A DNA stretch of 28,909 bases, from IMG/VR virus record IMGVR_UViG_3300009183_000281, positions 1 to 28,909 of that record; one strand, written 5' to 3'. Each line of letters opens with the position of its first letter. Positions within the stretch are counted from its first letter, which is position 1. A program made the translations under genes and the position numbers. Of the stretch, positions 2,958 through 13,461 are shown in pieces. The notes under the pieces are model-generated. The model saw only the letters and a list, made by a program, of their open reading frames with translations. It had not been told where the DNA came from and searched no databases. The DNA is from a virus.

Positions 2958-3416
2958 TTAAATATTAATGATAACAAAATCGCTTGATTCAAAAGCACTA
3001 TTAGTGGTTTTATAATCAATTCTAATTTTTGCCGTATGTTCTAATTGTGATATATTTGAGACGGTAAATTCTCTTTTATCCTCACCATTTATGTATGTTC
3101 CTTTACTTTCTTCTTCCATTGATGCATCGGTTATCTTAACATCAGTCACCAATAACCCCGGCATATAATTTGAAACCGAATCTCTAATCTCCGACTCTAT
3201 TTCCGCAAATGTTGGACCGTCCAATGGTTCAAAGATGTATTCATATAATCTTGTTCCAAAATCAGGTAAAAAATACCTAGTTCCTTTTCGGGTTAATAAT
3301 AAATGTATTAAGTTACTTCTAATCTCCTCATCTTTAGTGTCAGAACAATCTAAATACTTACCAACATACGAATCTTGAAAGGGAAAATTTATCCCATATG
3401 TAATTCCATTTCCCAT
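2958..3416 (-). CDS. 25: Baseplate wedge protein, T4 gp25-like (GPW/gp25 family)
   Basis: The 152-aa protein carries the family core at residues 34-62: SNLIHLLLTRKGTRYFLPDF, then GTRLYEYIFEPLD. This is the 'L.T..GeR.m.p.fG..l....f' motif of gp25/gpW/TssE-type wedge subunits. These proteins nucleate sheath assembly at the baseplate in contractile tails and injection machines. Its neighbours agree: the gp6-like gene follows 6 bp later. It is slightly longer than T4 gp25 (132 aa). An ATAAATA string (3422-3428, plus strand) lies only about 4 nt from the ATG, so it does not fit the spacing of the motif seen at other genes. Confidence 0.93.
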   Translation of the reverse strand: MGNGITYGINFPFQDSYVGKYLDCSDTKDEEIRSNLIHLLLTRKGTRYFLPDFGTRLYEYIFEPLDGPTFAEIESEIRDSVSNYMPGLLVTDVKITDASMEEESKGTYINGEDKREFTVSNISQLEHTAKIRIDYKTTNSAFESSDFVIINI

Positions 3417-3447
3417 ATCTAATAAATATAATGTTTGGGGGTTTTAT

Positions 3448-3486
3448 ATAAATAAAAAATCCCAACATAAGTCGGGATTATATTTT
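3448..3486. repeat. 39-bp direct repeat, copy 1 (contains terminator)
   Basis: This stretch is identical base for base to 4401-4439 (offset 953). It spans the terminator and the bases up to the stop codon of the metallopeptidase gene. Identity ends sharply at both edges (3447 t against 4400 a; 3487 t against 4440 a). Confidence 0.95.
3451..3479 (-). terminator. Rho-independent terminator after the metallopeptidase gene
   Basis: On the minus strand, AATCCCGAC, loop UUAU and GUUGGGAUU form a 9-bp stem with one G-U wobble, followed by a U-rich run (UUUUAUU). The wobble would be an A-C mismatch on the plus strand, so the hairpin belongs to minus-strand transcripts. It starts a few bases after the TAA at 3486-3488. 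It lies inside a 39-bp perfect repeat that also occurs at 4401-4439. Confidence 0.85.
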
Positions 3487-4373
3487 TAATTATTCTTATT
3501 TTCTTCCGCAATTTTCATAACAATCCTACCAAGACCTTTTCTAAATCTATTAAGACCATTCTCTAATTTTCCACTTAATTCTTTTTTAAATTTGTCTATT
3601 TGTAAATCGGTAACAGTGTTATATTTTGGTTTCATTTTAAAATAATGATTTAATATACCTAATAATTTAGTATACTCATTTTCACCATTTTCATTATAAT
3701 AACCATATGTTAATTGTTTTAACAAATTTTTTGATAATTTATTTAATAAATCAATTAATGTTGAGTTATTAAAATAATCTTGATAAAAATTATTTTTTTC
3801 GTTAAGGTATTTGAATAATTTTTTAATTTTTTCGTTCTCACTCCCATCAAGTGTTTTATAATATTTCGCACCTTCAGCATAAGCTTCGTGTAAATGAGCC
3901 TTAACTTCTTCATCATTTAACAAATATAATAAAGTTCCTAATTTATATTTGTTAGAAAAAAGTGTTGGTAATTTCATTGCGGTACTCATAGTAAAATTTG
4001 GTAATATATTATCAAATTTACCTTTTTTATAAATAAAATCAACACCGTGAAATGCTTCGTGTAAAATTGTCTTATACTGATCATTTGATTTAAATCCAAA
4101 AATTAATCTAGCACCTTCAGGTATTATCACAGATTCTTGCTGATTAAAATATGGGTTTAAACCCCCTCTATCTCTAATAATTATTTCTTCAATATTTAAA
4201 ATATTTATATTTTCATCAATAAGAATTTCTGACTCATTTTTCAATCTTGGTAGATTTTCAATAATTATTTCAGCCAGTTTTTTTGCATCGTCAGATACTC
4301 CTAAATCCTCATTTATAACTCTTTTAACAATTTTTACTAAATCTGATTCAGATAATCTAATAATTTTTCCCAT
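3486..4373 (-). CDS. Putative HExxH zinc metallopeptidase with leader peptide
   Basis: The 295-aa protein has a zincin motif HEAFH at residues 105-109 (context TILHEAFHGVDF) and, 53 residues later, HEAYAEGAKYY (162-172). There E163 or E167 could be the third zinc ligand, as in gluzincins. This resembles the HExxH...E-x-x-A-E arrangement of lethal-factor/MtfA-like peptidases. The N-terminus (MGKIIRLSESDLVKIVKRVI, then NE) is a basic amphipathic helix ending in I-N-E, which fits the I/L-x-E rule of T4-type prohead proteases. The gene is noticeably more AT-rich than its neighbours and stands alone between two identical terminators, suggesting an inserted 'moron'. Its substrate is unknown: it could be an injected virion protein or an expressed anti-host protease. 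The zincin call is fairly sure; the role is not. Confidence 0.75.
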   Translation of the reverse strand: MGKIIRLSESDLVKIVKRVINEDLGVSDDAKKLAEIIIENLPRLKNESEILIDENINILNIEEIIIRDRGGLNPYFNQQESVIIPEGARLIFGFKSNDQYKTILHEAFHGVDFIYKKGKFDNILPNFTMSTAMKLPTLFSNKYKLGTLLYLLNDEEVKAHLHEAYAEGAKYYKTLDGSENEKIKKLFKYLNEKNNFYQDYFNNSTLIDLLNKLSKNLLKQLTYGYYNENGENEYTKLLGILNHYFKMKPKYNTVTDLQIDKFKKELSGKLENGLNRFRKGLGRIVMKIAEENKNN

Positions 4374-4387
4374 AATTTATTTTTTAC

Positions 4388-4395
4388 TATAAATA
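4388..4395 (-). promoter_or_regulatory. Candidate late promoter/leader element TATTTATA
   Basis: TATTTATA on the minus strand lies 14 nt before the ATG of the metallopeptidase gene (4371-4373). The same element occurs at nearly the same distance before four other units. Confidence 0.5.
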
Positions 4396-4400
4396 TATTA

Positions 4401-4439
4401 ATAAATAAAAAATCCCAACATAAGTCGGGATTATATTTT
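4401..4439. repeat. 39-bp direct repeat, copy 2 (contains terminator)
   Basis: Perfect copy of 3448-3486. Together the two copies bracket the metallopeptidase gene and its upstream element. Confidence 0.95.
4404..4432 (-). terminator. Rho-independent terminator after nrdA
   Basis: It has the same 9-bp stem and U-rich tail as the copy at 3451-3479, starting a few bases after the nrdA stop (TAA, 4438-4440). It should end the replication/nucleotide operon. Confidence 0.85.
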
Positions 4440-12792: not shown

Positions 12793-13461
12793 TTAAGGCA
12801 TCATATCTTCGTCATCGTAAGTATTAAAAGTGTCTTGTATTTGTTTTGGAGAGAAATCCTCAACCTCATCTTTGGTTAAGATATATTCTTCTCTACCTTG
12901 TTTTTCAAACTGATCTTCTTTGTCTTCAAAATAATCAGATAGTTTTTGATTAAAAGGTCCGGAATCTAAACTTCTTAATTCAAGTTTTTCTTCAGGAGTT
13001 TTAGGTCTAAATTTTTCAATTTTTTGTTCCAATGAATTAACTGCGTTCATTAGGTTATCCATTTCACCCAATCTGTTTTCCAAATTTTCAAGTTGTTTGA
13101 ATAAGGTGTCAAAATATTCCTCTTGTTTTGTTTCAATATTTTTTTGTGAATTAACTAAATCAGTAATTTCAAGTTCTTCTTTATCGTCCTCATCTTTACC
13201 CACTTCTTCAACTTCAGGATCTTGAGATACATCAATTGGTTCAGGGGCAGTACCTGCTTCAGGTGCCGGTGGTGGAGGTAAAGCTCCGGGTGCTGGCGGT
13301 GTTTCCATTCCTGGTTCAGGTGGTAATCCCGCATCAGGTAATGGTGGAAGTGCTGCCGGATCCGGCTCAACGGGAGCCTCTTGTTCCATTATGTAATTAT
13401 TAATTGAGTTATATCTATTAATTTCTTCTAATATTTTTTTATCTATTTTCATATTAACCAT
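12793..13461 (-). CDS. Proline-rich / coiled-coil protein, possible head-core or scaffold component
   Basis: The 222-aa protein has three parts. Residues 1-26 form an amphipathic leader ending IME (I24-E26). Residues 29-78 are almost only Pro, Ala, Glu and Gly (many PPxP repeats). Residues about 100-155 form a coiled coil (NIETKQEEYFDTLFKQLENL onwards), with an acidic C-terminus. The leader ending in I-x-E, the high charge and the coiled coil recall internal head or scaffold proteins of T4-like phages cut by prohead protease (inference). Alternatives are a tail chaperone or a non-structural adaptor. Its ATG overlaps the stop of the 77-aa gene by 8 bp; a second ATG at 13450-13452 is also possible. 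The Pro-rich stretch is far more GC-rich than its surroundings. Confidence 0.78.
   Translation of the reverse strand: MVNMKIDKKILEEINRYNSINNYIMEQEAPVEPDPAALPPLPDAGLPPEPGMETPPAPGALPPPPAPEAGTAPEPIDVSQDPEVEEVGKDEDDKEELEITDLVNSQKNIETKQEEYFDTLFKQLENLENRLGEMDNLMNAVNSLEQKIEKFRPKTPEEKLELRSLDSGPFNQKLSDYFEDKEDQFEKQGREEYILTKDEVEDFSPKQIQDTFNTYDDEDMMP

Follow-up and report, generated by a model that had tools for sequence, protein, structure and literature searches.

How a single gene comes to lie between two identical terminators in a phage genome, and what kind of gene such a site accepts, are the questions raised by the nrdA-gp25 junction of the window (the whole stretch of DNA analysed here, 28,909 nucleotides of IMG/VR virus record IMGVR_UViG_3300009183_000281). 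The window derives from a huge phage related to lake phages infecting Bacteroidetes. On its minus strand the gene order is helicase, nrdB, nrdA, insert, gp25 and gp6, and the junction comprises the following features:

2958–3416, minus strand: gp25 baseplate wedge gene, downstream flank of the slot (PF04965, 6.6e-12)
3448–3486, minus strand: terminator repeat copy 2, behind the inserted gene; the duplicated copy, missing in all empty-site relatives
3486–4373, minus strand: inserted gene, 295 aa, found only in the window and in contig L001
4401–4439, minus strand: terminator repeat copy 1, behind nrdA and its resident terminator; a single copy occupies the same place in L002–L009
4438–6867, minus strand: nrdA, ribonucleotide reductase large subunit, upstream flank of the slot (PF02867, 8e-164)

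Origin of the insert and its bracketing terminators

The preliminary description of this locus reported identical 39-bp repeats that contain the same hairpin and each begin at the preceding stop codon, and this holds. The two copies agree at 39 of 39 positions and, read on the minus strand, begin within the stop codon of the preceding gene (nrdA stop, 4440–4438; insert stop, 3488–3486). Each forms a 9-pair stem with a 4-nt loop followed by a T-run and folds with −13.4 kcal/mol (z about −4 relative to shuffled sequences), and the two are the strongest terminator-like sites between positions 2000 and 8000, both on the minus strand. A 39-nt identity at a spacing of 953 bp is no chance event. The enclosed gene is also more AT-rich than its neighbours, as had been claimed, with a GC content of 23.5% and a GC3 of 13.5%, compared to a GC content of 31–34% and a GC3 of 22–28% in gp6, gp25, nrdA, nrdB and the helicase gene. 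Because an independent IMG/VR contig (L001) shows the same arrangement, with 99.9% identity across 8,764 bp, the assembly is not at fault. No transposase, integrase or nuclease was found between the repeats, the tagged ORF described below being the only gene there and lacking such a domain.

A scan of IMG/VR using gp25 yielded 80 related loci, which include both the gene-free, single-terminator junctions and the alternative cargo genes that the preliminary description had suggested looking for. In the closest relatives (L002–L009), nrdA is followed by exactly one copy of the same terminator and then by gp25, with an nrdA-gp25 spacing of 71 nt and no gene between. After removal of one repeat and the gene, the window aligns to L002–L005 over 348 bp without a gap and at 95–97% identity. 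Different cargo genes are found behind nrdA in L013 and before gp25 in L010, L033, L063, L065, L070 and L077. Presence of the gene and both repeats in all relatives, the situation that had been named as speaking against an insertion, is not what we find, L002–L009 being empty. In a tree of gp25 and gp6, the window, with its filled slot, is nested in a clade of empty alleles that has strong support, and the tree forces at least seven changes of slot state. That the gene was inserted at the terminator we regard as practically certain, and the best reading is a recent acquisition; the terminator with its T-tract would have been the place of a recombination or template-switching event.

Two origins had been put forward for the second terminator, insertion at a terminator or a cassette that brought a copy along, and the first is the more likely for this locus. 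Searched with at most two mismatches, the 22-nt hairpin occurs once in the 304 kb of relative G004; across 20 related contigs at the same stringency, those of L002, L006, L007 (304 kb) and L008 contain one copy apiece, that of L001 contains two, which are the bracketing copies, and the other 15 contain none. One copy in 304 kb rules out a dispersed-terminator model for the window hairpin and, together with the restriction to the bracketing copies in the contig of L001, indicates that the resident terminator was duplicated locally. The terminators behind the cargo in L077, L065 and L033 differ from the resident one, so that some cassettes do carry their own, but both window copies match the resident sequence of the empty relatives base for base across the 39 positions, and the 304-kb relative has the hairpin nowhere else. 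That this cassette brought its own terminator, which by chance or conversion was the same as the resident sequence, is therefore unlikely.

A second independent duplication is seen in L070, where an unrelated insert is followed by a second copy of the resident terminator of that locus; the duplicated copy reaches back into the end of the upstream gene, taking in its final codons (NLKESLRN), and the stem pairing is kept through base changes. Behind the cargo of L063 the remnant is weak, and no terminator was found in this position in L010 and L013 (two of the eight slot inserts). G004 and G012 contain no clear further case of a gene bracketed by duplicated terminators, leaving L070 as the only second one.

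The insert was also said to have its own upstream element, and a promoter-like box is present, with a counterpart in the gp25 leader:

4389–4397, minus strand: ATATTTAT-type promoter-like box, 16–24 nt upstream of the insert ATG, supported by box statistics in G004
3422–3430, minus strand: ATATTTAT box of the gp25 leader, kept downstream of the second terminator

Of the 365 ORFs in G004, 69 have a ATATTTAT box no more than 45 nt upstream, compared to 2.9 expected. Among the 99 tagged ORFs of the whole sample, 76 are preceded by TATTTAT, compared to 24 in a reverse-complement control. We propose that the cassette consists of a promoter box, a tagged coding sequence and a terminator, and that its insertion at the resident terminator of nrdA left this terminator in two copies; the insert would be transcribed from its own box, insulated by two terminators.

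Tagged cargo of the slot before gp25

The space before gp25 has nine separate fillings in the sample. One of them (L061) is truncated at its start by the contig end, and all eight inserts with a visible start carry a recurrent N-terminal tag, which the preliminary description had overlooked, compared to about 7% of the ORFs in G004. The tag accounts for the kind of cargo that the slot accepts, and it is highly probable that the slot is used for tagged cargo. None of the eight cargos matched an anti-phage defence library.

Part of the group has nrdA as the core gene upstream of the slot, and the rest has a 619-aa gene followed by a small cysteine-rich gene. By eye, the 619-aa gene resembles ribonucleotide reductases. 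The reductase at this fixed spot would thus have undergone a replacement, being nrdA/nrdB in some lineages, including the window, and the 619-aa reductase-like gene in others (comparison of L010–L020 and L033–L081 with the window). In L081, a 203-aa ORF (1468–2079), HNH-type endonuclease-like by eye, separates the reductase-like gene from the cysteine-rich gene. The gp25-gp6 interval is a second variable spot in the tail cluster, with tail-fibre-like extra genes of very different lengths that start MANK(R/K)ISQL in L067 (5466–6149), L075 (1668–2540) and L081 (2881–5319); being untagged and tail-protein-like, these inserts were ruled out as members of the slot.

In the window, the tag is encoded at the start of the insert:

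4308–4373, minus strand: N-terminal tag MGKIIRLSESDLVKIVKRVINE, aa 1–22, proposed capsid-targeting propeptide with a proposed cut after Glu22

It belongs to class A, with the consensus MKK[IV]IRLTESDLTRIVKRVIxE. A search pattern that fixed residues 4–12 only retrieved 100 unique ORFs with this tag, 99 of which align in one register. Among the aligned tags, Glu22 is invariant (99/99) and residue 20 is I in 85, L in 8, V in 5 and M in 1, while from residue 23 onward there is no conservation. The tagged bodies fall into 83 clusters without mutual similarity, and the window insert is one such tagged protein. The pattern was found at no fewer than 600 places in viral contigs and at three confirmed places in 84,980 bacterial and archaeal genomes, two of them on 3–4-kb contigs; GenBank phages gave no match. 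In the literature searched, including the accessible portion of PMC9723584, we found no mention of the tag or of the gp25 slot.

A second tag class, starting with MKKFIITEEEKSRIL, contains [IL]xE within residues 12–36 in 95% of 22 non-redundant proteins, compared to 23% of control windows. In a third, tag-like class (MKIIITESQ), the motif is found in 54%, compared to 32–43% in controls, and in view of this lack of a clear excess such N-termini need not all be cleaved propeptides. A single genome holds about 15 to 25 tagged candidates in the three classes. In G012 (215442–219385; L115, L116), nearby genes share a repeated N-terminus, MNLQENIQRIKEMMG..(I/L)xE, with near-identical DNA at the start, which may represent another tag class. 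In the window, an acidic, proline-rich ORF of 222 aa (12793–13461) begins MVNMKIDKKILEEINRYNSINNYIMEQ, and its N-terminal helix ends in IME, a propeptide-like arrangement.

Leader and tag recur many times per genome and could provide homology for recombination, and the phages carry a bS21-like gene (PMC9723584), so that the tag might be read as a DNA or RNA element, serving as a site of recombination or as a leader preferred by the bS21 ribosomal protein that these phages encode. However, third codon positions of the tag are much less conserved than the others (1.05 bits versus 1.50 and 1.71). Most positions are written with several synonymous codons, and for Glu22 both GAA and GAG occur. The freely varying third positions point to selection on the protein level, and we consider a nucleic acid element extremely unlikely.

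Beyond the tag, two elements of the insert body bear on its possible function:

4047–4061, minus strand: HEAFH motif, aa 105–109, candidate zinc site, from sequence
3873–3917, minus strand: NDEEVKAHLHEAYAE, aa 153–167, a speculative third zinc ligand (Glu), from sequence

The preliminary description had called the gene a metallopeptidase. The HEAFH motif agrees with this name, but searches of Pfam, PHROGs, NCBIfam and PDB sequences returned no family match for the body. Two different sub-queries recovered no homologues in viral contigs beyond the same species, and there were none in GenBank phages; a single-sequence structure model (pLDDT 41) was too poor to use. From the motif, we lean towards a putative zinc peptidase. 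A conserved 416-aa HExxH protein, encoded at 61 loci (L203–L263, about 3001–4248 in most), has a tag of about 16–23 aa that ends in (I/L)xE and meets the body at A[LV]GVP, and is a candidate core internal peptidase. Kinship between it and the insert was ruled out, as HMM and HHalign comparisons gave no significant body homology. Among ten other tagged proteins compared with Pfam, two have peptidoglycan-binding domains, one gave an alpha/beta-hydrolase-type match (UPF0227), and seven showed no domain.

The location upstream of gp25 and gp6, and the peptidoglycan-binding domains of two tagged bodies elsewhere, would suit a tail lysin or structural protease that belongs with the baseplate genes, shares a transcript with gp25 and has nothing to do with the head. 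Yet the gene is absent from close relatives with intact baseplate genes, the slot cargos have the tag and not the body in common, and terminators insulate the insert; we regard a tail role as very unlikely.

The tag as a candidate capsid-targeting propeptide

The motif of the T4 prohead protease is specifically I/L-x-E. Prohead proteases of T4 and of giant phages cut after Glu, T-even internal proteins have only a capsid-targeting sequence in common (PMC5694885, PMC3012670, PMC12373910), and the T4 capsid protein sheds a 65-residue N-terminal piece (PMC5694885, PMC9958956). Genes for a T4-type prohead protease (PF03420) and a gp23-type capsid protein (PF07068) are present in both near-complete relatives, G004 and G012, where they adjoin bS21-like, terminase and portal genes; the protease gene is seen in these relatives, outside the 28.9-kb window fragment. 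Near residue 60, the capsid protein of the group has LINE followed by A in 32 of 32 distinct variants. Moreover, the 40 N-terminal variants of a head-cluster protein of about 155 aa all share (I/L/V)xE at the same junction, while its tag changes length and type, being a full class-A tag or a shorter helix. From these sequence patterns, the tag is probably a cleaved T4-type capsid-targeting propeptide.

The tag could also be an uncleaved localisation signal of another kind, directed to a phage compartment, a membrane or a host complex, with the inserts as ordinary cytoplasmic accessory genes. Its form as a short amphipathic helix would allow this, and many tagged genes of G004 lie in accessory clusters far from the head genes. 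Such a signal, however, leaves unexplained why conservation ends right after the invariant Glu at (I/L)xE, and why a second tag class ends in the same way; nor does it fit a head-cluster protein that keeps the junction while swapping the rest of its tag, or a capsid protein whose propeptide ends in the same motif. We consider it quite unlikely.

With a cleaved propeptide as the preferred reading, the slot between the terminator of the upstream core gene and gp25 would be reused for genes with a capsid-targeting propeptide. The 22-aa amphipathic tag would dock the protein into the assembling prohead core, and a T4-gp21-type protease would cut after Glu22 (INE followed by D), in the same way as the capsid protein would mature at its LINE-A junction. 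The mature putative zinc peptidase may then stay in the head with the DNA, enter the next cell at infection and act on a host target. Cleavage, packaging, injection and enzymatic activity of the insert product are what we infer. For the tagged proteins in general, injection into the next host cell is a reasonably plausible outcome, and by analogy with T4 internal proteins the role of the cargo would likely be host takeover or counter-defence after injection.

Relation to known systems and implications

The tagged slot cargos would be a variant of the known T-even internal-protein type. As in the T-even proteins IPI, IPII, IPIII and Alt, unrelated bodies stand under one short N-terminal signal, and as at the T-even loci, the slot varies between close relatives, being empty or holding different bodies. 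In T-even phages, the prohead protease removes the signal, the loci are non-essential and variable, and the internal proteins enter the host by injection and block its restriction enzymes (PMC3012670, PMC12373910, PMC9958956, PMC5694885). By contrast, the tag here differs in sequence and is longer (22 aa versus 10–20), about 15 to 25 candidates per genome in three tag classes compare with Alt and three internal proteins in T4, nrd genes on one side and baseplate genes on the other flank the slot, and the predicted hosts are Bacteroidetes. The giant phages phiKZ and SPN3US have large heads with many internal proteins, whose propeptides are cut after Glu (PMC5694885). Most of these propeptides are much longer, several exceeding 120 residues, than the 22 residues found here, and the SPN3US motif is A-x-E instead of I/L-x-E.

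PeSL cassettes of T4-type phages, attributed to Arbiol in 2010 and Comeau in 2014 (both cited in PMC4503421), are reportedly modules with a promoter and bracketing stem-loops, thought to mediate modular shuffling. The present locus resembles them in that stem-loop terminators bracket the module. Its ATATTTAT promoter-like box may or may not correspond to the early promoter of PeSL modules. Its hairpin, with one copy in 304 kb, does not belong to a dispersed family, and its cargo carries a protein tag. In the bS21-encoding Bacteroidetes phages (Chen 2022, PMC9723584), terminase, portal, bS21, prohead protease and capsid genes lie together as they do in G004 and G012; genomes of about 300 kb and a freshwater origin are further points in common.

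On balance, we favour the picture of a modular injectable arsenal, in which a small set of interchangeable capsid-targeting tags would serve to deliver at least 15 different small proteins per genome, and slots bounded by terminators would exchange the cargo. In uncultured huge phages, most genes are without assigned function. If the arsenal exists, the tag alone would predict many delivered proteins without functional annotation from metagenomes, and a signature of about 22 residues ending in I/L-x-E would flag candidate injected proteins in these phages. The empty and filled alleles of the gp25 slot are clean and little diverged, which makes the slot a natural system for studying single-gene cassette gain at terminators. 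Since the T-even counterparts neutralise host restriction enzymes, the arsenal would be a place to seek counter-defence and host-takeover factors.
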